A DNA stretch of 64,000 nucleotides from Pyropia yezoensis (lineage: Eukaryota; Rhodophyta; Bangiophyceae; Bangiales; Bangiaceae): positions 25,765,122 to 25,829,121 of the forward strand of contig CM020618.1 of assembly GCA_009829735.1 (NCBI GenBank), in the 5' to 3' direction. The notes beneath the pieces were generated by a model. It saw only the letters and a list, made by a program, of their open reading frames with translations. It searched no databases and had not been told where the DNA came from. Position numbers and translations under genes: made by a program. Position 1 is the stretch's first letter. Each line of letters starts with the position of its first letter. Positions 9,211 to 46,856 of this stretch are shown here, in pieces.

Positions 9211-9690
9211 CAACCCAACCGACACCGACTTCGGCTGTTGGGGGGTGAGGCTTATACCTACTAAGTAGGGTGTGACATGGTTAAAGCAGACTTAGGTTTC
9301 TAAGTCAAATCAGACTTAGGTTTCTAAGTCGAACCAAGCTTAGGTAACTAAGTAGAGCTAAGCTTAGGTAACTAAGTAAAAACCTGAACCTTAATAAGTT
9401 AACTTAAAGGTAAAGGCTAACTCCGATAATATCGAAGTAACTAGGGAGCTTACACGGGAGGATGACCTCCCCAAGCCAAGACACAAAGTGAGGGAGGATA
9501 ACCTCCCCAAGCATGAACCAACCGGAAGAAGTTGGGCGGGAGGCAAGGCACCACTGAGCCAGAAGGGGTACTCCCCAGGGCAGCAAACAGAGGCAAGCAA
9601 TGCCCCCAGCGGGGGATGAGTTTATACTCACTACTACCCGGCTACCATAAGGGTTGCCGGGGCCCTCTCCCTCACAAACAATAGCACTCC
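9211..9690. other. Spacer between convergent pol and antisense ORF, with stem-loop cluster (copy 2)
   Basis: Same content as the block before the gap, with one extra C near 9423: four 24-bp hairpin repeats, two GGAGG/CCTCC hairpins and a CCCCC/GGGGG hairpin. It continues unbroken into the antisense ORF, whose stop is at 9691, and so shows the natural structure lost in copy 1 at the gap. Confidence 0.6.
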
Positions 9691-14130: not shown

Positions 14131-14843
14131 ATCACAGCGCAGTAGTGGGCGGTCGTAGAGCCCAGGCGAGTGCTGCAGGTCTTGCTGGCGCTTCCAGACT
14201 CCCTGTTCTTCCGTAGCATGAGATCGCCAGGAAGAGGTCCAGTCCGGCAGTGCGCCGCCTGAGGTGTGGTTCCTGCGGTCGCTCTTGGCACGAGCCGTGG
14301 CCACCAGCTCTGCTGGTCACAACTTGCTGTGTATGGACCTGGCAGCGCACGTCTGGCTGCATCGTGGGAGGGCTCTGGCCCCATACCTGTAGAGCGTCAC
14401 AAAAGTTTTTTTTTTGCCTCAGAGGAGGCTTTTATTTTTTTTCTTTACCTGCTTGTGTGGTCTTTCAAAGACATAGGAAGATGCCCGTCCCTGGCACTTA
14501 GTGCAACCGACATCCAAAGTCTCACCGAGGCGCACCCGCGGTCGAGAGGTGTGCCGTATACTACACGCCGTGCCCATGGGTGGGCATTATATGCAGGTGG
14601 CCAGGACTCGCAGCGGTTGGGAGCAAAAAGCAGAACGTATGATCCATTGGCTGGCCAGCAACCTCCGTGGACACGTTACTGGACTGTGGGCACTGGAAAT
14701 GGTGTGGTGCCGTACTGGGTGCAATGTCTGCCGAGTGCTGTGTGCCCTTGTGGCCATGGTTAGAGGGCCACAACCCGAGGTAATGGCCGCCGCACTGACT
14801 GTGATACGGCGGAAGCGGTAAGGTGGGTAGAAGAGCACTCAAC

Positions 14844-14848
14844 CTGCT
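14844..14848. other. Left target-site duplication CTGCT of the LTR array
   Basis: The five bases CTGCT directly precede the first LTR (TGTAGCAT...). The same five bases directly follow the last LTR at 35168-35172. A 5-bp duplication is typical of Ty3/gypsy and many other LTR retrotransposon integrases. Confidence 0.85.
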
Positions 14849-15254
14849 TGTAGCATATCCGCCCATTGTACAGAATTCCGGTATTGTCTGACTAGCAGCC
14901 CCCCTGACTGGTGGTCCCAACCTTGTCGGTATGGGCCCACTTGTGGCTCGCCCTTTGGGGGACTACTTTTGTTTTGCATTGTTTATCTGTCCCTGTCTTG
15001 GAGGGATCTTTTATGTTGTTTGCCATGCTCGTAGCGATCGGCCGTCCGGCCTCCGCTCGGTCGCTCGACCAGCATGTTATTTCGCCCTTCTCTGCGACGT
15101 GGGGGCTCGCCGCAGCCGTTCGGCCGGCTGGCCCCCCATCGAACGTCTGAGAGCTAAAGGATTGTCTTCTTTGCCTTTACGGTAATAGCTGTCTCTTTGC
15201 CTTCCCGGCGTCGGTCGGTCCCATATCCTTTTATTGGTCAACACTTATTCCACA
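14849..15254 (+). repeat. First (outermost left) LTR of the array, 406 bp
   Basis: It starts TGTAGCATATCCGCCCATTG and ends ...TTATTCCACA. The first 55 bp differ from all inner LTRs at about six sites (for example GCATAT versus GCATGT, AGCAGCC versus AGTAACC), while the rest is nearly identical to them. Confidence 0.9.
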
Positions 15255-15255
15255 T

Positions 15256-15273
15256 TGGTGGAGCAGCAGGGGA
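15256..15273 (+). other. Primer binding site of the array unit (first copy)
   Basis: TGGTGGAGCAGCAGGGGA lies one base after the LTR end. TGG pairs with the CCA tail of a tRNA. The same 18 bases follow each of the first 19 LTRs of the array, and recur after the LTRs of elements C (identical) and B (one mismatch). It is not the initiator-Met site (TGGTATCAGAG) common in plants. Confidence 0.8.
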
Positions 15274-15886
15274 TGCGTAGGAACGTGGCCATCTGGCCGT
15301 CAACCTCGAACCTCCCCGCCGTAGCACAACGGCGCTACCCGCACTCAAGCAACAGCTCAAGGTGCCGACTGGCAAACGTGTCGGACCATGGCCGACAGGT
15401 CAGCGACCGCACGCCCTTGCACCCGCGCGTCGAGCCAACGCACGGGAGGGCCAACCGGGCGTGACCTGCGAACCACGCGGTACTCCGCCGAGTCAACACG
15501 GGCCGACCACACGGCCTGCACGTAAACAACGGCCCAACACGCCGACAGGTGAACACGAGATCGATGGACAACTGGCCAGCGACCACACCCTCCCGCCCGT
15601 CAGGCTATCACCGGAAGGCCAACTGGGCGCGGCTCAACAACCTGGTCCTTGACCACGTAGTGCACTGCACTATGTAACGTGGCACGCCGCTTCGCGACCG
15701 GCGCGAGGCAAGCAGTGGGCAACACCACGGCCACACTGGACCGAAGCTTCTGGAAGCACCAACCGGTGCTGGCGCGGCCCCGGCACGCTTGCTGGAGGCC
15801 GCGCCCGGAGCCTCCCCGCCCACACAGGGCACAACCGGCAGCAACTTGCACCCGACCGGATCTCGCCGGCACGGCTCGAAGCTTGC

Positions 15887-15896
15887 AACGGGGGTA
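15887..15896 (+). other. Polypurine-like tract of the array unit (first copy)
   Basis: AACGGGGGTA immediately precedes the LTR start TGTAGCA in every unit. It is short for a polypurine tract, but the place is right, and element A shows a similar G-run followed by the same TGTAGCA. Confidence 0.5.
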
Positions 15897-16302
15897 TGTA
15901 GCATGTCCGCCCTTTGTACCGAATTCCGGTATTGTCTGGCTAGTAACCCCCCTGACTGGTGGTCCCAACCTTGTCGGTATGGGCCCACTTGTGGCTCGCC
16001 CTTCGGGGGACTACTTTTGTTTTGCATTGTTTATCTGTCCTTGTCTTGGAGGGATCTTTTATGTTGTTTGCCATGCTCGTAGCGATCGGCTGTCCGGCCT
16101 CCGCTCGGTCGCTCGACCAGCATGTTATTTCGCCCTTCTCTGCGACGTGGGGGCTCGCCGCAGCCGTTCGGCCGGCTGGCCCCCCATCGAACGTCTGAGA
16201 GCTAAAGGATTGTCTTCTTTGCCTTTACGGTAATAGCTGTCTCTTTGCCTTCCCGGCGTCGGTCGGTCCCATATCCTTTTATTGGTCAACACTTATTCCA
16301 CA
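15897..16302 (+). repeat. Second LTR of the array (typical inner LTR), 406 bp
   Basis: Starts TGTAGCATGTCCGCCC and ends TTATTCCACA. It serves as 3' LTR of the first unit and 5' LTR of the second. This form is nearly invariant in inner copies; a CTGTCC/CTATCC variant separates a subset (LTRs 3, 4, 9 and 14). Confidence 0.9.
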
Positions 16303-19300
16303 TTGGTGGAGCAGCAGGGGATGCGTAGGAACGTGGCCATCTGGCCGTCAACCTCGAACCTCCCCGCCGTAGCACAACGGCGCTACCCGCACTCAAGCAA
16401 CAGCTCAAGGTGCCGACTGGCAAACGTGTCGGACCATGGCCGACAGGTCAGCGACCGCACGCCCTTGCACCCGCGCGTCGAGCCAACGCACGGGAGGGCC
16501 AACCGGGCGTGACCCGCGAACCACGCGGTACTCCGCCGAGTCAACACGGGCCGACCACACGGCCTGCACGTAAACAACGGCCCAACACGCCGACAGGTGA
16601 ACACGAGATCGATGGACAACTGGCCAGCGACCACACCCTCCCGCCCGTCAGGCTATCACCGGAAGGCCAACTGGGCGCGGCTCAACAACCTGGTCCTTGA
16701 CCACGTAGTGCACTGCACTATGTAACGTGGCACGCCGCTTCGCGACCGGCGCGAGGCAAGCAGTGGGCAACACCACGGCCACACTGGACCGAAGCTTCTG
16801 GAAGCACCAACCGGTGCTGGCGCGGCCCCGGCACGCTTGCTGGAGGCCGCGCCCGGAGCCTCCCCGCCCACACAGGGCACAACCGGCAGCAACTTGCACC
16901 CGACCGGATCTCGCCGGCACGGCTCGAAGCTTGCAACGGGGGTATGTAGCATGTCCGCCCTTTGTACCGAATTCCGGTATTGTCTGGCTAGTAACCCCCC
17001 TGACTGGTGGTCCCAACCTTGTCGGTATGGGCCCACTTGTGGCTCGCCCTTTGGGGGACTACTTTTGTTTTGCATTGTTTATCTATCCTTGTCTTGGAGG
17101 GATCTTTTATGTTGTTTGCCATGCTCGTAGCGATCGGCCGTCCGGCCTCCGCTCGGTCGCTCGACCAGCATGTTATTTCGCCCTTCTCTGCGACGTGGGG
17201 GCTCGCCGCAGCCGTTCGGCCGGCTGGCCCCCCATCGAACGTCTGAGAGCTAAAGGATTGTCTTCTTTGCCTTTACGGTAATAGCTGTCTCTTTGCCTTC
17301 CCGGCGTCGGTCGGTCCCATATCCTTTTATTGGTCAACACTTATTCCACATTGGTGGAGCAGCAGGGGATGCGTAGGAACGTGGCCATCTGGCCGTCAAC
17401 CTCGAACCTCCCCGCCGTAGCACAACGGCGCTACCCGCACTCAAGCAACAGCTCAAGGTGCCGACTGGCAAACGTGTCGGACCATGGCCGACAGGTCAGC
17501 GACCGCACGCCCTTGCACCCGCGCGTCGAGCCAACGCACGGGAGGGCCAACCGGGCGTGACCCGCGAACCACGCGGTACTCCGCCGAGTCAACACGGGCC
17601 GACCACACGGCCTGCACGTAAACAACGGCCCAACACGCCGACAGGTGAACACGAGATCGATGGACAACTGGCCAGCGACCACACCCTCCCGCCCGTCAGG
17701 CTATCACCGGAAGGCCAACTGGGCGCGGCTCAACAACCTGGTCCTTGACCACGTAGTGCACTGCACTATGTAACGTGGCACGCCGCTTCGCGACCGGCGC
17801 GAGGCAAGCAGTGGGCAACACCACGGCCACACTGGACCGAAGCTTCTGGAAGCACCAACCGGTGCTGGCGCGGCCCCGGCACGCTTGCTGGAGGCCGCGC
17901 CCGGAGCCTCCCCGCCCACACAGGGCACAACCGGCAGCAACTTGCACCCGACCGGATCTCGCCGGCACGGCTCGAAGCTTGCAACGGGGGTATGTAGCAT
18001 GTCCGCCCTTTGTACCGAATTCCGGTATTGTCTGGCTAGTAACCCCCCTGACTGGTGGTCCCAACCTTGTCGGTATGGGCCCACTTGTGGCTCGCCCTTT
18101 GGGGGACTACTTTTGTTTTGCATTGTTTATCTATCCTTGTCTTGGAGGGATCTTTTATGTTGTTTGCCATGCTCGTAGCGATCGGCCGTCCGGCCTCCGC
18201 TCGGTCGCTCGACCAGCATGTTATTTCGCCCTTCTCTGCGACGTGGGGGCTCGCCGCAGCCGTTCGGCCGGCTGGCCCCCCATCGAACGTCTGAGAGCTA
18301 AAGGATTGTCTTCTTTGCCTTTACGGTAATAGCTGTCTCTTTGCCTTCCCGGCGTCGGTCGGTCCCATATCCTTTTATTGGTCAACACTTATTCCACATT
18401 GGTGGAGCAGCAGGGGATGCGTAGGAACGTGGCCATCTGGCCGTCAACCTCGAACCTCCCCGCCGTAGCACAACGGCGCTACCCGCACTCAAGCAACAGC
18501 TCAAGGTGCCGACTGGCAAACGTGTCGGACCATGGCCGACAGGTCAGCGACCGCACGCCCTTGCACCCGCGCGTCGAGCCAACGCACGGGAGGGCCAACC
18601 GGGCGTGACCCGCGAACCACGCGGTACTCCGCCGAGTCAACACGGGCCGACCACACGGCCTGCACGTAAACAACGGCCCAACACGCCGACAGGTGAACAC
18701 GAGATCGATGGACAACTGGCCAGCGACCACACCCTCCCGCCCGTCAGGCTATCACCGGAAGGCCAACTGGGCGCGGCTCAACAACCTGGTCCTTGACCAC
18801 GTAGTGCACTGCACTATGTAACGTGGCACGCCGCTTCGCGACCGGCGCGAGGCAAGCAGTGGGCAACACCACGGCCACACTGGACCGAAGCTTCTGGAAG
18901 CACCAACCGGTGCTGGCGCGGCCCCGGCACGCTTGCTGGAGGCCGCGCCCGGAGCCTCCCCGCCCACACAGGGCACAACCGGCAGCAACTTGCACCCGAC
19001 CGGATCTCGCCGGCACGGCTCGAAGCTTGCAACGGGGGTATGTAGCATGTCCGCCCTTTGTACCGAATTCCGGTATTGTCTGGCTAGTAACCCCCTGACT
19101 GGTGGTCCCAACCTTGTCGGTATGGGCCCACTTGTGGCTCGCCCTTTGGGGGACTACTTTTGTTTTGCATTGTTTATCTGTCCTTGTCTTGGAGGGATCT
19201 TTTATGTTGTTTGCCATGCTCGTAGCGATCGGCCGTCCGGCCTCCGCTCGGTCGCTCGACCAGCATGTTATTTCGCCCTTCTCTGCGACGTGGGGGCTCG

Positions 19301-22300
19301 CCGCAGCCGTTCGGCCGGCTGGCCCCCCATCGAACGTCTGAGAGCTAAAGGATTGTCTTCTTTGCCTTTACGGTAATAGCTGTCTCTTTGCCTTCCCGGC
19401 GTCGGTCGGTCCCATATCCTTTTATTGGTCAACACTTATTCCACATTGGTGGAGCAGCAGGGGATGCGTAGGAACGTGGCCATCTGGCCGTCAACCTCGA
19501 ACCTCCCCGCCGTAGCACAACGGCGCTACCCGCACTCAAGCAACAGCTCAAGGTGCCGACTGGCAAACGTGTCGGACCATGGCCGACAGGTCAGCGACCG
19601 CACGCCCTTGCACCCGCGCGTCGAGCCAACGCACGGGAGGGCCAACCGGGCGTGACCCGCGAACCACGCGGTACTCCGCCGAGTCAACACGGGCCGACCA
19701 CACGGCCTGCACGTAAACAACGGCCCAACACGCCGACAGGTGAACACGAGATCGATGGACAACTGGCCAGCGACCACACCCTCCCGCCCGTCAGGCTATC
19801 ACCGGAAGGCCAACTGGGCGCGGCTCAACAACCTGGTCCTTGACCACGTAGTGCACTGCACTATGTAACGTGGCACGCCGCTTCGCGACCGGCGCGAGGC
19901 AAGCAGTGGGCAACACCACGGCCACACTGGACCGAAGCTTCTGGAAGCACCAACCGGTGCTGGCGCGGCCCCGGCACGCTTGCTGGAGGCCGCGCCCGGA
20001 GCCTCCCCGCCCACACAGGGCACAACCGGCAGCAACTTGCACCCGACCGGATCTCGCCGGCACGGCTCGAAGCTTGCAACGGGGGTATGTAGCATGTCCG
20101 CCCTTTGTACCGAATTCCGGTATTGTCTGGCTAGTAACCCCCCTGACTGGTGGTCCCAACCTTGTCGGTATGGGCCCACTTGTGGCTCGCCCTTTGGGGG
20201 ACTACTTTTGTTTTGCATTGTTTATCTGTCCTTGTCTTGGAGGGATCTTTTATGTTGTTTGCCATGCTCGTAGCGATCGGCCGTCCGGCCTCCGCTCGGT
20301 CGCTCGACCAGCATGTTATTTCGCCCTTCTCTGCGACGTGGGGGCTCGCCGCAGCCGTTCGGCCGGCTGGCCCCCCATCGAACGTCTGAGAGCTAAAGGA
20401 TTGTCTTCTTTGCCTTTACGGTAATAGCTGTCTCTTTGCCTTCCCGGCGTCGGTCGGTCCCATATCCTTTTATTGGTCAACACTTATTCCACATTGGTGG
20501 AGCAGCAGGGGATGCGTAGGAACGTGGCCATCTGGCCGTCAACCTCGAACCTCCCCGCCGTAGCACAACGGCGCTACCCGCACTCAAGCAACAGCTCAAG
20601 GTGCCGACTGGCAAACGTGTCGGACCATGGCCGACAGGTCAGCGACCGCACGCCCTTGCACCCGCGCGTCGAGCCAACGCACGGGAGGGCCAACCGGGCG
20701 TGACCCGCGAACCACGCGGTACTCCGCCGAGTCAACACGGGCCGACCACACGGCCTGCACGTAAACAACGGCCCAACACGCCGACAGGTGAACACGAGAT
20801 CGATGGACAACTGGCCAGCGACCACACCCTCCCGCCCGTCAGGCTATCACCGGAAGGCCAACTGGGCGCGGCTCAACAACCTGGTCCTTGACCACGTAGT
20901 GCACTGCACTATGTAACGTGGCACGCCGCTTCGCGACCGGCGCGAGGCAAGCAGTGGGCAACACCACGGCCACACTGGACCGAAGCTTCTGGAAGCACCA
21001 ACCGGTGCTGGCGCGGCCCCGGCACGCTTGCTGGAGGCCGCGCCCGGAGCCTCCCCGCCCACACAGGGCACAACCGGCAGCAACTTGCACCCGACCGGAT
21101 CTCGCCGGCACGGCTCGAAGCTTGCAACGGGGGTATGTAGCATGTCCGCCCTTTGTACCGAATTCCGGTATTGTCTGGCTAGTAACCCCCCTGACTGGTG
21201 GTCCCAACCTTGTCGGTATGGGCCCACTTGTGGCTCGCCCTTTGGGGGACTACTTTTGTTTTGCATTGTTTATCTGTCCTTGTCTTGGAGGGATCTTTTA
21301 TGTTGTTTGCCATGCTCGTAGCGATCGGCCGTCCGGCCTCCGCTCGGTCGCTCGACCAGCATGTTATTTCGCCCTTCTCTGCGACGTGGGGGCTCGCCGC
21401 AGCCGTTCGGCCGGCTGGCCCCCCATCGAACGTCTGAGAGCTAAAGGATTGTCTTCTTTGCCTTTACGGTAATAGCTGTCTCTTTGCCTTCCCGGCGTCG
21501 GTCGGTCCCATATCCTTTTATTGGTCAACACTTATTCCACATTGGTGGAGCAGCAGGGGATGCGTAGGAACGTGGCCATCTGGCCGTCAACCTCGAACCT
21601 CCCCGCCGTAGCACAACGGCGCTACCCGCACTCAAGCAACAGCTCAAGGTGCCGACTGGCAAACGTGTCGGACCATGGCCGACAGGTCAGCGACCGCACG
21701 CCCTTGCACCCGCGCGTCGAGCCAACGCACGGGAGGGCCAACCGGGCGTGACCCGCGAACCACGCGGTACTCCGCCGAGTCAACACGGGCCGACCACACG
21801 GCCTGCACGTAAACAACGGCCCAACACGCCGACAGGTGAACACGAGATCGATGGACAACTGGCCAGCGACCACACCCTCCCGCCCGTCAGGCTATCACCG
21901 GAAGGCCAACTGGGCGCGGCTCAACAACCTGGTCCTTGACCACGTAGTGCACTGCACTATGTAACGTGGCACGCCGCTTCGCGACCGGCGCGAGGCAAGC
22001 AGTGGGCAACACCACGGCCACACTGGACCGAAGCTTCTGGAAGCACCAACCGGTGCTGGCGCGGCCCCGGCACGCTTGCTGGAGGCCGCGCCCGGAGCCT
22101 CCCCGCCCACACAGGGCACAACCGGCAGCAACTTGCACCCGACCGGATCTCGCCGGCACGGCTCGAAGCTTGCAACGGGGGTATGTAGCATGTCCGCCCT
22201 TTGTACCGAATTCCGGTATTGTCTGGCTAGTAACCCCCCTGACTGGTGGTCCCAACCTTGTCGGTATGGGCCCACTTGTGGCTCGCCCTTTGGGGGACTA

Positions 22301-25300
22301 CTTTTGTTTTGCATTGTTTATCTGTCCTTGTCTTGGAGGGATCTTTTATGTTGTTTGCCATGCTCGTAGCGATCGGCCGTCCGGCCTCCGCTCGGTCGCT
22401 CGACCAGCATGTTATTTCGCCCTTCTCTGCGACGTGGGGGCTCGCCGCAGCCGTTCGGCCGGCTGGCCCCCCATCGAACGTCTGAGAGCTAAAGGATTGT
22501 CTTCTTTGCCTTTACGGTAATAGCTGTCTCTTTGCCTTCCCGGCGTCGGTCGGTCCCATATCCTTTTATTGGTCAACACTTATTCCACATTGGTGGAGCA
22601 GCAGGGGATGCGTAGGAACGTGGCCATCTGGCCGTCAACCTCGAACCTCCCCGCCGTAGCACAACGGCGCTACCCGCACTCAAGCAACAGCTCAAGGTGC
22701 CGACTGGCAAACGTGTCGGACCATGGCCGACAGGTCAGCGACCGCACGCCCTTGCACCCGCGCGTCGAGCCAACGCACGGGAGGGCCAACCGGGCGTGAC
22801 CCGCGAACCACGCGGTACTCCGCCGAGTCAACACGGGCCGACCACACGGCCTGCACGTAAACAACGGCCCAACACGCCGACAGGTGAACACGAGATCGAT
22901 GGACAACTGGCCAGCGACCACACCCTCCCGCCCGTCAGGCTATCACCGGAAGGCCAACTGGGCGCGGCTCAACAACCTGGTCCTTGACCACGTAGTGCAC
23001 TGCACTATGTAACGTGGCACGCCGCTTCGCGACCGGCGCGAGGCAAGCAGTGGGCAACACCACGGCCACACTGGACCGAAGCTTCTGGAAGCACCAACCG
23101 GTGCTGGCGCGGCCCCGGCACGCTTGCTGGAGGCCGCGCCCGGAGCCTCCCCGCCCACACAGGGCACAACCGGCAGCAACTTGCACCCGACCGGATCTCG
23201 CCGGCACGGCTCGAAGCTTGCAACGGGGGTATGTAGCATGTCCGCCCTTTGTACCGAATTCCGGTATTGTCTGGCTAGTAACCCCCCTGACTGGTGGTCC
23301 CAACCTTGTCGGTATGGGCCCACTTGTGGCTCGCCCTTTGGGGGACTACTTTTGTTTTGCATTGTTTATCTATCCTTGTCTTGGAGGGATCTTTTATGTT
23401 GTTTGCCATGCTCGTAGCGATCGGCCGTCCGGCCTCCGCTCGGTCGCTCGACCAGCATGTTATTTCGCCCTTCTCTGCGACGTGGGGGCTCGCCGCAGCC
23501 GTTCGGCCGGCTGGCCCCCATCGAACGTCTGAGAGCTAAAGGATTGTCTTCTTTGCCTTTACGGTAATAGCTGTCTCTTTGCCTTCCCGGCGTCGGTCGG
23601 TCCCATATCCTTTTATTGGTCAACACTTATTCCACATTGGTGGAGCAGCAGGGGATGCGTAGGAACGTGGCCATCTGGCCGTCAACCTCGAACCTCCCCG
23701 CCGTAGCACAACGGCGCTACCCGCACTCAAGCAACAGCTCAAGGTGCCGACTGGCAAACGTGTCGGACCATGGCCGACAGGTCAGCGACCGCACGCCCTT
23801 GCACCCGCGCGTCGAGCCAACGCACGGGAGGGCCAACCGGGCGTGACCCGCGAACCACGCGGTACTCCGCCGAGTCAACACGGGCCGACCACACGGCCTG
23901 CACGTAAACAACGGCCCAACACGCCGACAGGTGAACACGAGATCGATGGACAACTGGCCAGCGACCACACCCTCCCGCCCGTCAGGCTATCACCGGAAGG
24001 CCAACTGGGCGCGGCTCAACAACCTGGTCCTTGACCACGTAGTGCACTGCACTATGTAACGTGGCACGCCGCTTCGCGACCGGCGCGAGGCAAGCAGTGG
24101 GCAACACCACGGCCACACTGGACCGAAGCTTCTGGAAGCACCAACCGGTGCTGGCGCGGCCCCGGCACGCTTGCTGGAGGCCGCGCCCGGAGCCTCCCCG
24201 CCCACACAGGGCACAACCGGCAGCAACTTGCACCCGACCGGATCTCGCCGGCACGGCTCGAAGCTTGCAACGGGGGTATGTAGCATGTCCGCCCTTTGTA
24301 CCGAATTCCGGTATTGTCTGGCTAGTAACCCCCCTGACTGGTGGTCCCAACCTTGTCGGTATGGGCCCACTTGTGGCTCGCCCTTTGGGGGACTACTTTT
24401 GTTTTGCATTGTTTATCTGTCCTTGTCTTGGAGGGATCTTTTATGTTGTTTGCCATGCTCGTAGCGATCGGCCGTCCGGCCTCCGCTCGGTCGCTCGACC
24501 AGCATGTTATTTCGCCCTTCTCTGCGACGTGGGGGCTCGCCGCAGCCGTTCGGCCGGCTGGCCCCCCATCGAACGTCTGAGAGCTAAAGGATTGTCTTCT
24601 TTGCCTTTACGGTAATAGCTGTCTCTTTGCCTTCCCGGCGTCGGTCGGTCCCATATCCTTTTATTGGTCAACACTTATTCCACATTGGTGGAGCAGCAGG
24701 GGATGCGTAGGAACGTGGCCATCTGGCCGTCAACCTCGAACCTCCCCGCCGTAGCACAACGGCGCTACCCGCACTCAAGCAACAGCCAAGGTGCCGACTG
24801 GCAAACGTGTCGGACCATGGCCGACAGGTCAGCGACCGCACGCCCTTGCACCCGCGCGTCGAGCCAACGCACGGGAGGGCCAACCGGGCGTGACCCGCGA
24901 ACCACGCGGTACTCCGCCGAGTCAACACGGGCCGACCACACGGCCTGCACGTAAACAACGGCCCAACACGCCGACAGGTGAACACGAGATCGATGGACAA
25001 CTGGCCAGCGACCACACCCTCCCGCCCGTCAGGCTATCACCGGAAGGCCAACTGGGCGCGGCTCAACAACCTGGTCCTTGACCACGTAGTGCACTGCACT
25101 ATGTAACGTGGCACGCCGCTTCGCGACCGGGCGCGAGGCAAGCAGTGGGCAACACCACGGCCACACTGGACCGAAGCTTCTGGAAGCACCAACCGGTGCT
25201 GGCGCGGCCCCGGTACGCTTGCTGGAGGCCGCGCCCGGAGCTTCCCCGCCCACACAGGGCACAACCGGCAGCAACTTGCACCCGACCGGATCTCGCCGGC

Positions 25301-28300
25301 ACGGCTCGAAGCTTGCAACGGGGGTATGTAGCATGTCCGCCCTTTGTACCGAATTCCGGTATTGTCTGGCTAGTAACCCCCCTGACTGGTGGTCCCAACC
25401 TTGTCGGTATGGGCCCACTTGTGGCTCGCCCTTTGGGGGACTACTTTTGTTTTGCATTGTTTATCTGTCCTTGTCTTGGAGGGATCTTTTATGTTGTTTG
25501 CCATGCTCGTAGCGATCGGCCGTCCGGCCTCCGCTCGGTCGCTCGACCAGCATGTTATTTCGCCCTTCTCTGCGACGTGGGGGCTCGCCGCAGCCGTTCG
25601 GCCGGCTGGCCCCCCATCGAACGTCTGAGAGCTAAAGGATTGTCTTCTTTGCCTTTACGGTAATAGCTGTCTCTTTGCCTTCCCGGCGTCGGTCGGTCCC
25701 ATATCCTTTTATTGGTCAACACTTATTCCACATTGGTGGAGCAGCAGGGGATGCGTAGGAACGTGGCCATCTGGCCGTCAACCTCGAACCTCCCCGCCGT
25801 AGCACAACGGCGCTACCCGCACTCAAGCAACAGCTCAAGGTGCCGACTGGCAAACGTGTCGGACCATGGCCGACAGGTCAGCGACCGCACGCCCTTGCAC
25901 CCGCGCGTCGAGCCAACGCACGGGAGGGCCAACCGGGGCGTGACCCGCGAACCACGCGGTACTCCGCCGAGTCAACACGGGCCGACCACACGGCCTGCAC
26001 GTAAACAACGGCCCAACACGCCGACAGGTGAACACGAGATCGATGGACAACTGGCCAGCGACCACACCCTCCCGCCCGTCAGGCTATCACCGGAAGGCCA
26101 ACTGGGCGCGGCTCAACAACCTGGTCCTTGACCACGTAGTGCACTGCACTATGTAACGTGGCACGCCGCTTCGCGACCGGCGCGAGGCAAGCAGTGGGCA
26201 ACACCACGGCCACACTGGACCGAAGCTTCTGGAAGCACCAACCGGTGCTGGCGCGGCCCCGGCACGCTTGCTGGAGGCCGCGCCCGGAGCCTCCCCGCCC
26301 ACACAGGGCACAACCGGCAGCAACTTGCACCCGACCGGATCTCGCCGGCACGGCTCGAAGCTTGCAACGGGGGTATGTAGCATGTCCGCCCTTTGTACCG
26401 AATTCCGGTATTGTCTGGCTAGTAACCCCCCTGACTGGTGGTCCCAACCTTGTCGGTATGGGCCCACTTGTGGCTCGCCCTTTGGGGGACTACTTTTGTT
26501 TTGCATTGTTTATCTGTCCTTGTCTTGGAGGGATCTTTTATGTTGTTTGCCATGCTCGTAGCGATCGGCCGTCCGGCCTCCGCTCGGTCGCTCGACCAGC
26601 ATGTTATTTCGCCCTTCTCTGCGACGTGGGGGCTCGCCGCAGCCGTTCGGCCGGCTGGCCCCCCATCGAACGTCTGAGAGCTAAAGGATTGTCTTCTTTG
26701 CCTTTACGGTAATAGCTGTCTCTTTGCCTTCCCGGCGTCGGTCGGTCCCATATCCTTTTATTGGTCAACACTTATTCCACATTGGTGGAGCAGCAGGGGA
26801 TGCGTAGGAACGTGGCCATCTGGCCGTCAACCTCGAACCTCCCCGCCGTAGCACAACGGCGCTACCCGCACTCAAGCAACAGCTCAAGGTGCCGACTGGC
26901 AAACGTGTCGGACCATGGCCGACAGGTCAGCGACCGCACGCCCCTTGCACCCGCGCGTCGAGCCAACGCACGGGAGGGCCAACCGGGCGTGACCCCGCGA
27001 ACCACGCGGTACTCCGCCGAGTCAACACGGCCGACCACACGGCCTGCACGTAAACAACGGCCCAACACGCCGACAGGTGAACACGAGATCGATGGACAAC
27101 TGGCCAGCGACCACACCCTCCCGCCCGTCAGGCTATCACCGGAAGGCCAACTGGGCGCGGCTCAACAACCTGGTCCTTGACCACGTAGTGCACTGCACTA
27201 TGTAACGTGGCACGCCGCTTCGCGACCGGCGCGAGGCAAGCAGTGGGCAACACCACGGCCACACTGGACCGAAGCTTCTGGAAGCACCAACCGGTGCTGG
27301 CGCGGCCCCGGCACGCTTGCTGGAGGCCGCGCCCGGAGCCTCCCCGCCCACACAGGGCACAAACCGGCAGCAACTTGCACCCGACCGGATCTCGCCGGCA
27401 CGGCTCGAAGCTTGCAACGGGGGTATGTAGCATGTCCGCCCTTTGTACCGAATTCCGGTATTGTCTGGCTAGTAACCCCCCTGACTGGTGGTCCCAACCT
27501 TGTCGGTATGGGCCCACTTGTGGCTCGCCCTTTGGGGGACTACTTTTGTTTTGCATTGTTTATCTGTCCTTGTCTTGGAGGGATCTTTTATGTTGTTTGC
27601 CATGCTCGTAGCGATCGGCCGTCCGGCCTCCGCTCGGTCGCTCGACCAGCATGTTATTTCGCCCTTCTCTGCGACGTGGGGGCTCGCCGCAGCCGTTCGG
27701 CCGGCTGGCCCCCCATCGAACGTCTGAGAGCTAAAGGATTGTCTTCTTTGCCTTTACGGTAATAGCTGTCTCTTTGCCTTCCCGGCGTCGGTCGGTCCCA
27801 TATCCTTTTATTGGTCAACACTTATTCCACATTGGTGGAGCAGCAGGGGATGCGTAGGAACGTGGCCATCTGGCCGTCAACCTCGAACCTCCCCGCCGTA
27901 GCACAACGGCGCTACCCGCACTCAAGCAACAGCTCAAGGTGCCGACTGGCAAACGTGTCGGACCATGGCCGACAGGTCAGCGACCGCACGCCCTTGCACC
28001 CGCGCGTCGAGCCAACGCACGGGAGGGCCAACCGGGCGTGACCCGCGAACCACGCGGTACTCCGCCGAGTCAACACGGGCCGACCACACGGCCTGCACGT
28101 AAACAACGGCCCAACACGCCGACAGGTGAACACGAGATCGATGGACAACTGGCCAGCGACCACACCCTCCCGCCCGTCAGGCTATCACCGGAAGGCCAAC
28201 TGGGCGCGGCTCAACAACCTGGTCCTTGACCACGTAGTGCACTGCACTATGTAACGTGGCACGCCGCTTCGCGACCGGCGCGAGGCAAGCAGTGGGCAAC

Positions 28301-31300
28301 ACCACGGCCACACTGGACCGAAGCTTCTGGAAGCACCAACCGGTGCTGGCGCGGCCCCGGCACGCTTGCTGGAGGCCGCGCCCGGAGCCTCCCCGCCCAC
28401 ACAGGGCACAACCGGCAGCAACTTGCACCCGACCGGATCTCGCCGGCACGGCTCGAAGCTTGCAACGGGGGTATGTAGCATGTCCGCCCTTTGTACCGAA
28501 TTCCGGTATTGTCTGGCTAGTAACCCCCCTGACTGGTGGTCCCAACCTTGTCGGTATGGGCCCACTTGTGGCTCGCCCTTTGGGGGACTACTTTTGTTTT
28601 GCATTGTTTATCTATCCTTGTCTTGGAGGGATCTTTTATGTTGTTTGCCATGCTCGTAGCGATCGGCCGTCCGGCCTCCGCTCGGTCGCTCGACCAGCAT
28701 GTTATTTCGCCCTTCTCTGCGACGTGGGGGCTCGCCGCAGCCGTTCGGCCGGCTGGCCCCCCATCGAACGTCTGAGGGCTAAAGGATTGTCTTCTTTGCC
28801 TTTACGGTAATAGCTGTCTCTTTGCCTTCCCGGCGTCGGTCGGTCCCATATCCTTTTATTGGTCAACACTTATTCCACATTGGTGGAGCAGCAGGGGATG
28901 CGTAGGAACGTGGCCATCTGGCCGTCAACCTCGAACCTCCCCGCCGTAGCACAACGGCGCTACCCGCACTCAAGCAACAGCTCAAGGTGCCGACTGGCAA
29001 ACGTGTCGGACCATGGCCGACAGGTCAGCGACCGCACGCCCTTGCACCCGCGCGTCGAGCCAACGCACGGGAGGGCCAACCGGGCGTGACCCGCGAACCA
29101 CGCGGTACTCCGCCGAGTCAACACGGGCCGACCACACGGCCTGCACGTAAACAACGGCCCAACACGCCGACAGGTGAACACGAGATCGATGGACAACTGG
29201 CCAGCGACCACACCCTCCCGCCCGTCAGGCTATCACCGGAAGGCCAACTGGGCGCGGCTCAACAACCTGGTCCTTGACCACGTAGTGCACTGCACTATGT
29301 AACGTGGCACGCCGCTTCGCGACCGGCGCGAGGCAAGCAGTGGGCAACACCACGGCCACACTGGACCGAAGCTTCTGGAAGCACCAACCGGTGCTGGCGC
29401 GGCCCCGGCACGCTTGCTGGAGGCCGCGCCCGGAGCCTCCCCGCCCACACAGGGCACAACCGGCAGCAACTTGCACCCGACCGGATCTCGCCGGCACGGC
29501 TCGAAGCTTGCAACGGGGGTATGTAGCATGTCCGCCCTTTGTACCGAATTCCGGTATTGTCTGGCTAGTAACCCCCCTGACTGGTGGTCCCAACCTTGTC
29601 GGTATGGGCCCACTTGTGGCTCGCCCTTTGGGGGACTACTTTTGTTTTGCATTGTTTATCTGTCCTTGTCTTGGAGGGATCTTTTATGTTGTTTGCCATG
29701 CTCGTAGCGATCGGCCGTCCGGCCTCCGCTCGGTCGCTCGACCAGCATGTTATTTCGCCCTTCTCTGCGACGTGGGGGCTCGCCGCAGCCGTTCGGCCGG
29801 CTGGCCCCCCATCGAACGTCTGAGAGCTAAAGGATTGTCTTCTTTGCCTTTACGGTAATAGCTGTCTCTTTGCCTTCCCGGCGTCGGTCGGTCCCATATC
29901 CTTTTATTGGTCAACACTTATTCCACATTGGTGGAGCAGCAGGGGATGCGTAGGAACGTGGCCATCTGGCCGTCAACCTCGAACCTCCCCGCCGTAGCAC
30001 AACGGCGCTACCCGCACTCAAGCAACAGCCCAAGGTGCCGACTGGCAAACGTGTCGGACCATGGCCGACAGGTCAGCGACCGCACGCCCTTGCACCCGCG
30101 CGTCGAGCCAACGCACGGGAGGGCCAACCGGGCGTGACCCGCGAACCACGCGGTACTCCGCCGAGTCAACACGGGCCGACCACACGGCCTGCACGTAAAC
30201 AACGGCCCAACACGCCGACAGGTGAACACGAGATCGATGGACAACTGGCCAGCGACCACACCCTCCCGCCCGTCAGGCTATCACCGGAAGGCCAACTGGG
30301 CGCGGCTCAACAACCTGGTCCTTGACCACGTAGTGCACTGCACTATGTAACGTGGCACGCCGCTTCGCGACCGGCGCGAGGCAAGCAGTGGGCAACACCA
30401 CGGCCACACTGGACCGAAGCTTCTGGAAGCACCAACCGGTGCTGGCGCGGCCCCGGTACGCTTGCTGGAGGCCGCGCCCGGAGCTTCCCCGCCCACACAG
30501 GGCACAACCGGCAGCAACTTGCACCCGACCGGATCTCGCCGGCACGGCTCGAAGCTTGCAACGGGGGTATGTAGCATGTCCGCCCTTTGTACCGAATTCC
30601 GGTATTGTCTGGCTAGTAACCCCCCTGACTGGTGGTCCCAACCTTGTCGGTATGGGCCCACTTGTGGCTCGCCCTTTGGGGGACTACTTTTGTTTTGCAT
30701 TGTTTATCTGTCCTTGTCTTGGAGGGATCTTTTATGTTGTTTGCCATGCTCGTAGCGATCGGCCGTCCGGCCTCCGCTCGGTCGCTCGACCAGCATGTTA
30801 TTTCGCCCTTCTCTGCGACGTGGGGGCTCGCCGCAGCCGTTCGGCCGGCTGGCCCCCCATCGAACGTCTGAGAGCTAAAGGATTGTCTTCTTTGCCTTTA
30901 CGGTAATAGCTGTCTCTTTGCCTTCCCGGCGTCGGTCGGTCCCATATCCTTTTATTGGTCAACACTTATTCCACATTGGTGGAGCAGCAGGGGATGCGTA
31001 GGAACGTGGCCATCTGGCCGTCAACCTCGAACCTCCCCGCCGTAGCACAACGGCGCTACCCGCACTCAAGCAACAGCTCAAGGTGCCGACTGGCAAACGT
31101 GTCGGACCATGGCCGACAGGTCAGCGACCGCACGCCCTTGCACCCGCGCGTCGAGCCAACGCACGGGAGGGCCAACCGGGCGTGACCCGCGAACCACGCG
31201 GTACTCCGCCGAGTCAACACGGGCCGACCACACGGCCTGCACGTAAACAACGGCCCAACACGCCGACAGGTGAACACGAGATCGATGGACAACTGGCCAG

Positions 31301-34300
31301 CGACCACACCCTCCCGCCCGTCAGGCTATCACCGGAAGGCCAACTGGGCGCGGCTCAACAACCTGGTCCTTGACCACGTAGTGCACTGCACTATGTAACG
31401 TGGCACGCCGCTTCGCGACCGGCGCGAGGCAAGCAGTGGGCAACACCACGGCCACACTGGACCGAAGCTTCTGGAAGCACCAACCGGTGCTGGCGCGGCC
31501 CCGGCACGCTTGCTGGAGGCCGCGCCCGGAGCCTCCCCGCCCACACAGGGCACAACCGGCAGCAACTTGCACCCGACCGGATCTCGCCGGCACGGCTCGA
31601 AGCTTGCAACGGGGGTATGTAGCATGTCCGCCCTTTGTACCGAATTCCGGTATTGTCTGGCTAGTAACCCCCCTGACTGGTGGTCCCAACCTTGTCGGTA
31701 TGGGCCCACTTGTGGCTCGCCCTTTGGGGGACTACTTTTGTTTTGCATTGTTTATCTGTCCTTGTCTTGGAGGGATCTTTTATGTTGTTTGCCATGCTCG
31801 TAGCGATCGGCCGTCCGGCCTCCGCTCGGTCGCTCGACCAGCATGTTATTTCGCCCTTCTCTGCGACGTGGGGGCTCGCCGCAGCCGTTCGGCCGGCTGG
31901 CCCCCCATCGAACGTCTGAGAGCTAAAGGATTGTCTTCTTTGCCTTTACGGTAATAGCTGTCTCTTTGCCTTCCCGGCGTCGGTCGGTCCCATATCCTTT
32001 TATTGGTCAACACTTATTCCACATTGGTGGAGCAGCAGGGGATGCGTAGGAACGTGGCCATCTGGCCGTCAACCTCGAACCTCCCCGCCGTAGCACAACG
32101 GCGCTACCCGCACTCAAGCAACAGCCCAAGGTGCCGACTGGCAAACGTGTCGGACCATGGCCGACAGGTCAGCGACCGCACGCCCTTGCACCCGCGCGTC
32201 GAGCCAACGCACGGGAGGGCCAACCGGGCGTGACCCGCGAACCACGCGGTACTCCGCCGAGTCAACACGGGCCGACCACACGGCCTGCACGTAAACAACG
32301 GCCCAACACGCCGACAGGTGAACACGAGATCGATGGACAACTGGCCAGCGACCACACCCTCCCGCCCGTCAGGCTATCACCGGAAGGCCAACTGGGCGCG
32401 GCTCAACAACCTGGTCCTTGACCACGTAGTGCACTGCACTATGTAACGTGGCACGCCGCTTCGCGACCGGCGCGAGGCAAGCAGTGGGCAACACCACGGC
32501 CACACTGGACCGAAGCTTCTGGAAGCACCAACCGGTGCTGGCGCGGCCCCGGTACGCTTGCTGGAGGCCGCGCCCGGAGCTTCCCCGCCCACACAGGGCA
32601 CAACCGGCAGCAACTTGCACCCGACCGGATCTCGCCGGCACGGCTCGAAGCTTGCAACGGGGGTATGTAGCATGTCCGCCCTTTGTACCGAATTCCGGTA
32701 TTGTCTGGCTAGTAACCCCCCTGACTGGTGGTCCCAACCTTGTCGGTATGGGCCCACTTGTGGCTCGCCCTTTGGGGGACTACTTTTGTTTTGCATTGTT
32801 TATCTGTCCTTGTCTTGGAGGGATCTTTTATGTTGTTTGCCATGCTCGTAGCGATCGGCTGTCCGGCCTCCGCTCGGTCGCTCGACCAGCATGTTATTTC
32901 GCCCTTCTCTGCGACGTGGGGGCTCGCCGCAGCCGTTCGGCCGGCTGGCCCCCCATCGAACGTCTGAGAGCTAAAGGATTGTCTTCTTTGCCTTTACGGT
33001 AATAGCTGTCTCTTTGCCTTCCCGGCGTCGGTCGGTCCCATATCCTTTTATTGGTCAACACTTATTCCACATTGGTGGAGCAGCAGGGGATGCGTAGGAA
33101 CGTGGCCATCTGGCCGTCAACCTCGAACCTCCCCGCCGTAGCACAACGGCGCTACCCGCACTCAAGCAACAGCTCAAGGTGCCGACTGGCAAACGTGTCG
33201 GACCATGGCCGACAGGTCAGCGACCGCACGCCCTTGCACCCGCACGTCGAGCCAACGCACGGGAGGGCCAACCGGGCGTGACCCGCGAACCACGCGGTAC
33301 TCCGCCGAGTCAACACGGGCCGACCACACGGCCTGCACGTAAACAACGGCCCAACACGCCGACAGGTGAACACGAGATCGATGGACAACTGGCCAGCGAC
33401 CACACCCTCCCGCCCGTCAGGCTATCACCGGAAGGCCAACTGGGCGCGGCTCAACAACCTGGTCCTTGACCACGTAGTGCACTGCACTATGTAACGTGGC
33501 ACGCCGCTTCGCGACCGGCGCGAGGCAAGCAGTGGGCAACACCACGGCCACACTGGACCGAAGCTTCTGGAAGCACCAACCGGTGCTGGCGCGGCCCCGG
33601 CACGCTTGCTGGAGGCCGCGCCCGGAGCCTCCCCGCCCACACAGGGCACAACCGGCAGCAACTTGCACCCGACCGGATCTCGCCGGCACGGCTCGAAGCT
33701 TGCAACGGGGGTATGTAGCATGTCCGCCCTTTGTACCGAATTCCGGTATTGTCTGGCTAGTAACCCCCCTGACTGGTGGTCCCAACCTTGTCGGTATGGG
33801 CCCACTTGTGGCTCGCCCTTTGGGGGACTACTTTTGTTTTGCATTGTTTATCTGTCCTTGTCTTGGAGGGATCTTTTATGTTGTTTGCCATGCTCGTAGC
33901 GATCGGCCGTCCGGCCTCCGCTCGGTCGCTCGACCAGCATGTTATTTCGCCCTTCTCTGCGACGTGGGGGCTCGCCGCAGCCGTTCGGCCGGCTGGCCCC
34001 CCATCGAACGTCTGAGAGCTAAAGGATTGTCTTCTTTGCCTTTACGGTAATAGCTGTCTCTTTGCCTTCCCGGCGTCGGTCGGTCCCATATCCTTTTATT
34101 GGTCAACACTTATTCCACATTGGTGGAGCAGCAGGGGATGCGTAGGAACGTGGCCATCTGGCCGTCAACCTCGAACCTCCCCGCCGTAGCACAACGGCGC
34201 TACCCGCACTCAAGCAACAGCCCAAGGTGCCGACTGGCAAACGTGTCGGACCATGGCCGACAGGTCAGCGACCGCACGCCCTTGCACCCGCGCGTCGAGC

Positions 34301-34761
34301 CAACGCACGGGAGGGCCAACCGGGCGTGACCCGCGAACCACGCGGTACTCCGCCGAGTCAACACGGGCCGACCACACGGCCTGCACGTAAACAACGGCTT
34401 AACACGCCGACAGGTGAACACGAGATCGATGGACAACTGGCCAGCGACCACACCCTCCCGCCCGTCAGGCTATCACCGGAAGGCCAACTGGGCGCGGCTC
34501 AACAACCTGGTCCTTGACCACGTAGTGCACTGCACTAAGTAACGTGGCACGCCGCTTCGCGACCGGCGCGAGGCAAGCAGTGGGCAACACCACGGCCACA
34601 CTGGACCGAAGCTTCTGGAAGCACCAACCGGTGCTGGCGCGGCCCCGGCACGCTTGCTGGAGGCCGCGCCCGGAGCCTCCCCGCCCACACAGGGCACAAC
34701 CGGCAGCAACTTGCACCCGACCGGATCTCGCCGGCACGGCTCGAAGCTTGCAACGGGGGTA

Positions 34762-35167
34762 TGTAGCATGTCCGCCCTTTGTACCGAATTCCGGTATTGT
34801 CTGGCTAGTAACCCCCCTGACTGGTGGTCCCAACCTTGTCGGTATGGGCCCACTTGTGGCTCGCCCTTTGGGGGACTACTTTTGTTTTGCATTGTTTATC
34901 TGTCCTTGTCTTGGAGGGATCTTTTATGTTGTTTGCCATGCTCGTAGCGATCGGCCGTCCGGCCTCCGCTCGGTCGCTCGACCAGCATGTTATTTCGCCC
35001 TTCTCTGCGACGTGGGGGCTCGCCGCAGCCGTTCGGCCGGCTGGCCCCCCATCGAACGTCTGAGAGCTAAAGGATTGTCTTCCTTGCCTTTACGGTAATA
35101 GCTGTCTCTTTGCCTTCCCGGCGTCGGTCGGTCCCATATCCTTTTATCGGTCAACACATATTTCACA
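34762..35167 (+). repeat. Last (outermost right) LTR of the array, 406 bp
   Basis: Its left part matches the inner LTRs, but the last 30 bp differ at three sites (TTATCGG, ACACATATTTCACA), with one more change near 35082. It ends at CACA and is followed by the CTGCT duplication, with no primer binding site. Confidence 0.9.
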
Positions 35168-35172
35168 CTGCT
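35168..35172. other. Right target-site duplication CTGCT of the LTR array
   Basis: CTGCT directly follows the last LTR and equals the five bases before the first LTR, showing that the whole 20.3-kb array occupies one insertion site. Confidence 0.85.
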
Positions 35173-35658
35173 GAGGGGTGCTCAGTATCCACCTCAGGCA
35201 GTCCCTGTGCTACACTGCACCTCAGGCAGCCCCTCTGCTACACTGCCTCCGCATAAGGCGTGTATCATCGAACTAAGCCGGCAAGGCTGAGCCCACCTGA
35301 GTCGAGTCTACTCGACCGGTACGGCCGCGCTTCCACCCTCATAGGACAATGAACAAGTACAACAACAAAGAAGTGCATGAAAAAAAAAAAAAAACCGCAC
35401 ACAACCGAGGGGGAAAAGCCGCGGCCAGTACAATCAGACCAAGCAAACACCGGCGACAGGCGATCACACAAAGCACATGAACGCACAAGCAAAACGAACC
35501 ATCAAAAACACCAGCAAGGAGCAGCCGTATCACATGCATGACAAGAGAAGAAAACGCGACAAGGGACACCCCGAGCGACGCACAAGCACCAGAGCTCACA
35601 GGCGAAGACCGCAAACCAGATAAAAGTTCTCAAACAGAAAAGCCCTCACAGAGTCCAA
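35173..35658. other. Intergenic, no gene recognised; short 28-bp duplication
   Basis: A 28-bp direct duplication beginning ACCTCAGGCAG lies at 35191-35218 and 35219-35246. An A-run is at about 35380-35393. The short open frames show no recognisable domain. Confidence 0.6.
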
Positions 35659-37945: not shown

Positions 37946-38414
37946 TGTGGCAATGTTGACCCCAAGGTAGGGGGGCAACACGTGCCATGCAAGGGGCGGC
38001 AGGCCACTTGCCTGATCCGTTCCTCCCCCTGCATTTGGGTCCATATTCCCTAAGTTTGGGATAGTTAGCTTAGTAGTAAATCCAACTTGAATTTGAGGGT
38101 TTTCTGCATTTATCGTCTTGAATTTTCGTGTGGCCCGGTGGGCAGGTGCTGGGGTGGGAGATTCTGAGTGGCGAGATTCTGAGTGGACCCGGGGGGGATA
38201 AGGGGAGGGACAGCGGGGCTTGGCCCTGCGTCCCCGTCCCGACCAAGAAACTGTTGGACCACACACCATCCTCTTGTATGTCCGTGGGGGGTTTGCCCCA
38301 CAACAGGGACAGAATGTGTGCGACTTGAACTTCTTCCGGTTCCCCCGACACGGGATGCAGCCCTTGCACACCGCCCCAACTTGGGTGCCGTGTGTGCATG
38401 TGGTTTTTGCCACA
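37946..38414 (+). repeat. Element B 5' LTR, 469 bp
   Basis: Begins TGTGGCAATGTTGACC and ends TTTTTGCCACA. The same sequence recurs at 46857-47325 with the same length. The minus strand is open throughout and would encode a Cys-rich peptide (see findings). Confidence 0.92.
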
Positions 38415-38416
38415 TT

Positions 38417-38434
38417 TGGAGGAGCAGCAGGGGA
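38417..38434 (+). other. Element B primer binding site
   Basis: TGGAGGAGCAGCAGGGGA starts two bases after the LTR. It differs at one base from the site used by the tandem-array element and by element C. Confidence 0.8.
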
Positions 38435-38533
38435 CAGAGGTAAACTTTACCTCCGTGTGCACCCGGGTGTAGGGGGCCCTCTGTCTCAGAGGAACGGTGG
38501 ACTTGGACCGTGTCATACGGATCTTCAGCCAAC

Positions 38534-40480: not shown

Positions 40481-41520
40481 CCGTTGGAGCCGGCCGTCCG
40501 AAGCTCACAACGGCAGCCTCGGCCAAGTGGGCCAGGAGGACGAGCCAACCGTGCCGGATACTGCGGCGACCTAAGGGAGTCCGCCCACCTCGGGTAGGAC
40601 TCCCTAAGAACGTAAACCCACGTCGGGTCATCGCGGTGCTGACGGGTGAGAACTTCCAGGTGGCTGGACGGGTGCAACTTGCCCCCGGCCGCGCCTGTTG
40701 TGCCCGTATCGTACTTGACACCGGGTCAGGAGCCTCCTTGATACGCAAGTCGCTATTACCAAAGGAGGTGAAGCTCCAATGCTGGAGGTTCAAAGCTGAC
40801 CATATGATTGACATCAATGGTGGGGTACTTCCCATCGTTGGTGCCGTGACCCTACCAACTAGGTTGGGGACACATGAGGTCGACGTGACCTATGGTGTAG
40901 TTGAGAATATATCGGTACCCCTGCTTCTGGGTACCCCTTATGTTGTTACACAAGTGCCTTTGATTTGTGGCCCTGAGTACTGGGTCAAGTTGATGAATGG
41001 GGAGACTATCCCCATCCTTGGTAAGGGAAAGTCTGTGGCTCCTGTGACAGTCTCACAGTCGAAGCCTGTTTGCTCTGTGAGGGAAGGGTTTACTGCTATC
41101 CTGCGTTTAGCCCGTAAAGTCACGTTGCCCCCCAACTCGGTGGCGCACGTTGACGTTGTAACTGATTTTACGGGGAACGGGTTGGTGCACCCTTACCCCC
41201 GTCTTGCTCGCAAGCACCAAGTGTATGTTGCCCTTGGCACGATGGACTCCAAAGCTGGAGTCCCGTGGAGGATACAGGTGATGAACCTGAGCTCGTCACC
41301 CCAGTACTTCAAGTCGGGAGCCAAGTTCGGCTATATCGACCAACACGAGGGACCGGTAGTAGCGGTCACCCTCAACGCGGGCGCAAGTAGCGACCCGAAG
41401 TCCGGAAAGGAGAAGCATCAAGCCAAGTCGGCCGCCTCTCCTCGGCCCCATGTGAACATGGAGGGTGTCCCCCCCAGGTTGAGGGTTCAAGTTGAACGCC
41501 TCTTGGACCAATATCACTAG
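40477..41520 (+). pseudogene. pol: Element B Pol, protease part, ended by in-frame TAG
   Basis: The frame starts with ATG within ATGA, overlapping the gag stop by 4 nt, in the -1 frame. It has an aspartic protease with DTGS at residue 81 and the downstream ILGTP-like flap region (LLLGTPY). It ends at TAG (41518-41520), and the RT ORF continues in the same frame from the next codon. The corresponding positions in A and C are sense codons just before the conserved LWxGxLG/ATxHRI segment. The TAG is therefore best read as a nonsense mutation inside pol, though stop readthrough is an alternative. Confidence 0.75.
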
Positions 41521-44464: not shown

Positions 44465-44575
44465 GGGAAGGCCGAGCAACAGTGCCAAGAGAGTGCTTCA
44501 AGTCGAAGTGGTACGCAGAGTGGCTTTTAACTACAGCCCTAACCCTCACACTCTCACAACAAAGGCAGCTGCCAA
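44465..44575. other. Short spacer between convergent pol and antisense ORF of element B
   Basis: About 110 bp separates the pol stop from the end of the antisense coding remnant. Unlike in element A, I see no hairpin repeat cluster. Confidence 0.5.
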
Positions 44576-46839: not shown

Positions 46840-46856
46840 AACTGAGGAGAGGAGAG
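46840..46856 (+). other. Element B polypurine tract
   Basis: AACTGAGGAGAGGAGAG directly precedes the 3' LTR start TGTGGC. It is almost purely purine and sits at the plus-strand primer position. Confidence 0.85.

Follow-up and report, generated by a model that had tools for sequence, protein, structure and literature searches.

Tandem arrays of long terminal repeat (LTR) retrotransposons have been described in plants, and here we compare with them an array from the red alga Pyropia yezoensis, located in a window of 64,000 nucleotides (C1:25765122-25829121, forward strand). The window is the whole stretch of DNA that was analysed, and the genome searched comprised 107.5 Mb in 11 contigs. Statements on published arrays refer to the parts of the cited papers that were available to us. 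The closest described systems are tandemly arrayed terminal-repeat retrotransposons in miniature (TA-TRIMs; TRIM for the single element), namely Zma-SMART (PMC4717578) and Wukong (PMC4528315). As in P. yezoensis, LTRs and internal regions alternate in these arrays, an LTR stands at each end and the repeated unit is non-coding, which bears out an earlier reading of the same DNA (the original prediction) in its statement that tandem TRIM-type arrays are known in plants. Most Wukong arrays are also surrounded as a whole by a 5-bp duplication (PMC4528315), as is the array studied here. TA-TRIMs mostly contain three LTRs; Zma-SMART reaches five LTRs with four internal regions (PMC4717578) and Wukong up to seven LTRs (PMC4528315). 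Both are dispersed families, whereas the P. yezoensis array occupies one locus and no dispersed miniatures were found among the genome candidates scored. Cassandra arrays are similar in being long and made of near-identical LTR-internal units, but they comprise at most 12 repeats per array, contain 5S rRNA sequence and belong to a widespread family (PMC7215508). With 19 units, the array is longer than the described tandem LTR arrays with which it was compared (at most 12 repeats, Cassandra, PMC7215508). Tandem LTR retrotransposons of rice likewise share their inner LTRs, and perfect 5-nt duplications are found in 10 of the 28 clear tandems; they are mostly gypsy elements of the Tekay lineage and differ from the present array in that each of the 28 contains protein-coding regions, and three LTRs are present at the example locus (PMC11899658).

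Whether such tandems form before or after insertion was left open in these studies: the rice authors could not decide between insertion of a concatemer and recombination (PMC11899658), and the origin of Cassandra arrays was left between recombination and template switching (PMC7215508). The P. yezoensis locus, an aged insertion with chimeric inner LTRs, bears on this question at one locus. We consider it probable (about 0.76) that the whole sequence of steps ran from birth by a strand-transfer error through one insertion and a period of ageing to amplification by LTR-LTR exchange. What makes the array stand out is its length, its red-algal host and the fact that it is a deletion derivative found at one locus, but chiefly a signature that speaks to the order in which things happened. 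This signature, the difference between outer and inner LTRs by position, can be looked for in every array in public genomes; we did not find such a test in the tandem-LTR literature examined, which was covered in part, and claim no priority for it.

The array (14849-35167; all features given here are on the forward strand) consists of 20 LTRs of 406 bp that alternate head-to-tail with 19 internal regions of approximately 642 bp. The 20 LTR starts, the first at 14849 and the last at 34762, are spaced by 1047-1050 bp; the 19 tandem units, each an LTR plus an internal region, extend from 14849 to 34761, and both the first LTR (14849-15254) and the last LTR (34762-35167) have 406 bp. A single LTR-internal-LTR element measures 1454 bp. 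One base past the LTR, TGGTGGAGCAGCAGGGGATG opens all 19 internal regions, which account for 19 of its 20 occurrences in the window, and at their 3' ends the G-run GCAACGGGGGTA abuts the next LTR in 19 of 19 cases. The first internal region (15255-15896, 642 bp) contains one base, the primer-binding site (PBS; 15256-15274, 19 nt, complementary to the 3' end of tRNA-Ala) and a region from the 3' end of a chromovirus, without gag-pol. No stop-to-stop open reading frame of at least 220 aa, the length from which frames were listed, overlaps the array. The motif CTGCT lies directly outside both ends (14844-14848 and 35168-35172). With LTR/internal alternation, an LTR at both ends and one outer duplication, the locus is a tandem LTR-retrotransposon array, and as a long tandem array of 19 near-identical units it also has the form of satellite DNA, its deletion junction having been found at this locus only among the candidates scored. 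The original prediction had resolved an apparent 1048-bp satellite into these 20 LTRs and 19 internal regions with an LTR at both ends, and had pointed out the G-run, the two copies of CTGCT and the absence of evident coding capacity, all of which stand; its PBS lies one base after the LTR as claimed, with the proposed length of 18 nt now refined to 19 nt.

The array is inserted into a dispersed host repeat, of which 250 bp on the left (14599-14848, including the duplication) and 250 bp on the right (35173-35422) were joined and used as an empty-site probe against the genome. The joined flanks gave end-to-end matches at four other places (84-91% identity) and at two more (70-72%); a seventh place matches in two pieces, and the junction readings cover the other six. 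A single CTGCT stands at the junction in four of these six copies (L095, L097, L098 and L100), and the remaining two are one base off (CTACT in L096, CTTCT in L099). The original prediction had looked to another individual for an empty CTGCT site; the sites found here are paralogous copies of the host repeat in the same genome, and they supply it. Since four of these copies carry CTGCT only once, its doubling around the array is not due to chance, and the insertion was one event. In the host repeat beside the array there is also a 28-bp tandem duplication (window 35190-35246), which is present in L095 and L096 and absent from the four other paralogues.

The order of events can be approached by comparing the LTRs by position. 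In a column comparison, the first LTR departs from the inner LTRs at positions 9, 17, 24, 43, 48, 50 and 145, and the last LTR at positions 322, 387, 397 and 402. When unit 7 supplies the inner LTR, these seven sites of the first LTR, all within 1-145, and four sites of the last LTR, all within 322-406, are the only differences. That all seven lie to the left of all four has a probability of approximately 0.003 if positions are random. An inner LTR thus equals the left part of the last LTR joined to the right part of the first, which is what unequal crossing over between the left LTR of one chromatid and the right LTR of the other should yield once the two had drifted apart. The two outer LTRs differ at 11 of 406 positions (2.7%). 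Substitutions among the 18 inner LTRs are confined to four columns (108, 141, 195 and 304), besides which there are two single-base indels, and the mean pairwise substitution among units 2-19 is 0.20%. For polarisation we used 35 family LTR rows, i.e. non-identical matches of more than 300 bp in the supplied loci; the genome search scored the best 40 of 232 LTR candidates, and the family is larger. The inner LTR of unit 2, which carries variants at 108 and 195, served for polarisation and for the comparison of the outer pair, and that of unit 7 for the repeat. Against the family, positions 17, 24, 43, 48 and 145 are derived on the first LTR and 322, 387, 397 and 402 on the last, 397A being found in one of the 35 rows as well. 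The remaining two variants, 9G (3/35 rows) and 50A (1/35, the 3' LTR of L009), are common to the inner and last LTRs. In the tree, the array LTRs form one clade (support 100/99).

These data bear directly on the possibility that a ready-made concatemer of approximately 19 units, which circles or reverse transcription could have provided, integrated all at once. The single outer duplication fits such an event too, and it was left open for the plant arrays (PMC11899658; PMC7215508). If all 20 LTRs had aged alike in a static concatemer, however, approximately 99 substitutions would be expected in the 18 inner LTRs (the lowest of 5,000 draws gave 67), compared with four variable columns. When each inner column is counted as one event, 9 of 13 LTR events fall on 2 of the 20 LTRs (P 5e-7). 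A preformed concatemer that stayed static is rejected on this pattern, and a ready-made concatemer of approximately 19 units is very improbable as the explanation; a short concatemer followed by homogenising exchange may have been involved, but needs an added step. Because the outer LTRs are diverged and the inner ones near-uniform and chimeric, amplification of an old insertion by later LTR-LTR exchange appears strongly supported. Of the two routes offered by the original prediction, one integration followed by unequal LTR-LTR recombination is thus supported by the chimeric edges and the empty sites, and integration of a preformed concatemer, in its static form, is not.

The internal regions add to this picture. 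Five substitutions are private to the internal region of one unit, and all lie in units 1, 18 and 19; this concentration at the array edges reads as the gradient left by repeated unequal exchange. Other variants are common to scattered units (141A in units 3, 4, 9 and 14; 940T and 968T in units 10, 15 and 17). Extrachromosomal one-LTR circles of 1048 bp, copied by a rolling-circle mechanism and recombined back into a resident LTR, would produce the same chimeric edges and a very uniform interior. The scattered variants weakly favour repeated exchange, and we regard an origin from circles as unlikely.

The number of units is that of the assembly, and the exact number is assembly-dependent. An assembly artefact, affecting the copy number or the whole array, would be in line with the published assembly being PacBio-based with a contig N50 of 340.8 kb (PMC7423979), with an unmerged duplicate of approximately 4.36 kb around the gap at 4791-5290, and with the location of all nine single-base indels in units 5 and 9-12, as if the middle had been poorly polished. 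This indel cluster suggests a weaker consensus in the middle of the array. However, the array itself contains no N, the only N-run of the window (4791-5290) lying outside it, and there are distinct substitutions in its units; neither the edges nor the empty site depend on array length, and inner LTRs that differ from both outer LTRs require two units or more. A miscount of units is much more probable than the absence of an array, and an artefact as the explanation of the locus is extremely improbable.

The internal region is 92-96% identical to the 3' end of ten other loci; weaker matches occur at 11 places (partial, 76-78%), plus one short match. Four relatives are complete and have a length of approximately 8.7-9.7 kb. 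One of them, L013, contains a 500-aa stop-to-stop frame with a zinc knuckle and a 1385-aa frame in which, scanned as two pieces, reverse transcriptase, RNase H, integrase and a chromodomain were recognised. This combination of a gag zinc knuckle with reverse transcriptase, RNase H and integrase followed by a chromodomain is that of Ty3/gypsy chromoviruses, and judged by this one relative the relatives of the array are chromoviruses of approximately 9 kb. Tekay is a chromovirus lineage as well. All four complete relatives checked have 5-bp duplications of their own (GCCCG, CTCCA, CCAGC and GGAAG); L012, with an incomplete 5' LTR, was left out of this check. Their LTR pairs differ at 15/406, 5/405, 11/405 and 7/370 positions, compared with 11/406 for the outer LTRs of the array.

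To the deletion that separates the array unit from these relatives belongs a junction for which the genome was searched with a probe across it, the best 40 of 90 candidates being scored. By full-probe matches among these candidates, the junction was found nowhere outside the 19 array units; elsewhere, ten loci match only the 3' part of the probe and eleven only the LTR-PBS part. Where a leader is present, the PBS runs into the ordinary leader in 20 of 20 distinct loci. This check covered LTR matches reaching position 395, which gave 22 leader rows for the 20 loci (L036 repeats L013 and L039 repeats L011), while the other 23 rows show the LTR followed by other DNA. As the search scores the best candidates, the absence of other miniature copies is strong, not absolute. 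TRIMs are very small, with LTRs and whole elements of a few hundred bp. The array unit resembles them in having an LTR, a PBS and a purine-rich end (the G-run, 19/19) and in lacking an open reading frame of at least 220 aa; it departs from them in size (LTR 406 bp, LTR-internal-LTR 1454 bp) and in that its junction was found at the array locus only. A dispersed TRIM family was rejected, since among the candidates scored the junction was found only in the 19 array units, and nested insertions were rejected because of the one junction type and one outer duplication. The original prediction had taken the unit for a TRIM-type element mobilised as such and had let its reading depend on the existence of dispersed 1454-bp copies. 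Within the reach of the search there are none, and the idea of a miniature family falls; the single insertion is unaffected.

Position and sequence of the junction indicate how the miniature may have been born. The PBS is a 19-nt match to the end of tRNA-Ala when the terminal CCA, which is not encoded and was added for the comparison, is counted. In an initial comparison with 30 tRNA loci, a tRNA-Ala(UGC) gene matched with two mismatches, and a match in L081 lies outside its tRNA. A pattern search then gave three tRNA-Ala-like loci (L101, L102 and L103), all with the 19-nt match; ARAGORN called a tRNA-Ala (anticodon CGC) in L102 only and none in L101 and L103. All three carry extra sequence, L103 also on the D-arm side, perhaps as unusual introns. 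Within the window, no tRNA was detected by ARAGORN, and an RNA-family search of the window was also without a match.

Up to nt 16 the array sequence is that of the PBS; the next three, nt 17-19 (GAT), occur in both partners of the junction, and past GAT the sequence continues as the 3' region of the element. Of 8,040 positions compared in L012, whose sequence comes closest to the internal region, none matches the PBS end over 11 nt as well as the landing site does; among the 7,942 positions of L014, one other does equally well. The homology at the landing site is 9/11 in both, including the exact run of 3 nt, and the site is best or tied at lengths of 8-13 (L012) and 8-14 (L014). Because the 3' end of the PBS marks the beginning of the deletion, and the best 11-nt match to it in L012 the landing point, a misplaced plus-strand transfer is suggested, i.e. 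the deletion may have arisen while the RNA of an autonomous element was being copied. The enzymes from another element that the original prediction called for need then not be invoked. Alternatively, a full-length element may have inserted and lost its interior only in the chromosome, by microhomology repair, before amplification began; this would replace the birth step only. The 3-nt microhomology (GAT) within a 9/11 match is also a product of end-joining or slippage, but repair has no known reason to choose the PBS end, and among equally homologous pairs (for L012, pairs at least 1 kb apart) only 1 of 2,846 in L012 and 1 of 2,583 in L014 starts there. A chromosomal deletion is unlikely.

Retroviral deletions were reportedly attributed to strand-transfer errors by Pulsinelli and Temin in 1991, in vector experiments with a retrovirus. 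In contrast to those vector experiments, the present case is a natural, single, chromosomal one that seeded a satellite. Tentatively, and with more doubt than confidence, misplaced plus-strand transfer, in which the PBS end anneals to a lookalike at the 3' end, might be a way in which miniature LTR elements generally arise in a single step. Such elements would be prone to LTR-LTR exchange because their two LTRs lie only a few hundred bases apart, and a single error of reverse transcription could in this way seed a satellite. A junction at the PBS end is a concrete, countable prediction for the birth of such elements.

Taken together, a history in four steps may be proposed. Misplaced plus-strand transfer during reverse transcription would have skipped gag and pol and given rise to the 1454-bp element (LTR-642-LTR). 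This element integrated a single time into the dispersed host repeat at CTGCT, as the duplication and the empty sites attest, and its two LTRs then drifted to the 11 differences in 406 now seen between them. In a strongly supported reconstruction of the last step, unequal exchange between left and right LTR on misaligned chromatids would have duplicated the unit, and further exchanges would have lengthened the array and made its interior uniform, so that original sequence survives only in the outward parts of the two terminal LTRs. The outcome would be a young satellite within an older insertion and a clear step from retrotransposon to satellite in a red alga.

Several observations weigh against this history. 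The middle 176 bp of the outer LTRs contain none of their 11 differences (P 0.002 if these were uniform), a pattern that one crossover alone leaves unaccounted for. In the family, LTR variation is even from end to end (0.063, 0.065 and 0.067), and the clean middle is therefore not a matter of constraint; because it lacks differences although the family varies evenly, one crossover is insufficient, and later contractions or gene conversion must have brought interior sequence into the terminal LTRs. Among the variants common to several units, a pattern of 5-unit blocks (units 9-10 and 14-15) was not significant (P 0.66 by permutation; when exact states are compared, no pair of neighbours recurs), and a block duplication was not adopted; in the one genome no single-unit or intermediate haplotype was seen. 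With regard to the birth step, the landing site has a homology of 8/11 in L013 and of only 7/11 in L011, in which better matches exist, and the site is not the best at lengths of 6-7 nor at longer lengths up to 16. Moreover, the length of 11 nt was chosen after the junction had been seen, and L012 and L014 are stand-ins for the true parent copy.

Exchange of LTR sequence may have reached beyond the array. The closest LTR outside it, among the best 40 of 232 candidates, is the 3' LTR of the element L009 (C1:25751700-25761699), which is located at 9523-9928 of that locus, 18 kb upstream of the array. Between positions 46 and 241 (196 nt) it does not differ from the inner array LTR, the next longest identical runs among the 35 family rows being 91 nt (L009 5' LTR) and then 78 nt; a run of this length has a P of 0.002 if the 13 differences of the L009 3' LTR were uniform. 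The L009 3' LTR carries 50A, as do the inner and last array LTRs; the first array LTR lacks it, and the L009 5' LTR has a G at this position. From this we infer that the 196-nt identity may result from gene conversion from the array across 18 kb. L009 was rejected as the direct parent, since in the tree its 5' and 3' LTRs group together as a pair and the match to its 3' internal region is limited to the last ~67 bp. The L009 3' LTR differs from the inner array LTR at 13 positions, seven of which fall within 25 bp (LTR positions 242-266, window 15090-15114 in the first LTR), and 242C and 266A occur in none of the 35 family LTR rows.

Some features of the window are separate from the array. The gap at 4791-5290 (500 N) is flanked by copies of approximately 4.36 kb (431-4790 and 5291-9650) with 99.5% identity, 1 mismatch and 19 gaps; probably, these are overlapping contig ends left unmerged and not a true duplication. 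Another gypsy element at 55978-62035 has the same 20-nt primer-binding sequence and a chromodomain match below the Pfam cut-off; no LTR like that of the array was found there. Finally, two direct repeats of 469 bp, 98.5% identical and 8.9 kb apart, surround zinc-knuckle and gypsy pol frames at window 37946-47325, which is probably a further LTR retrotransposon.

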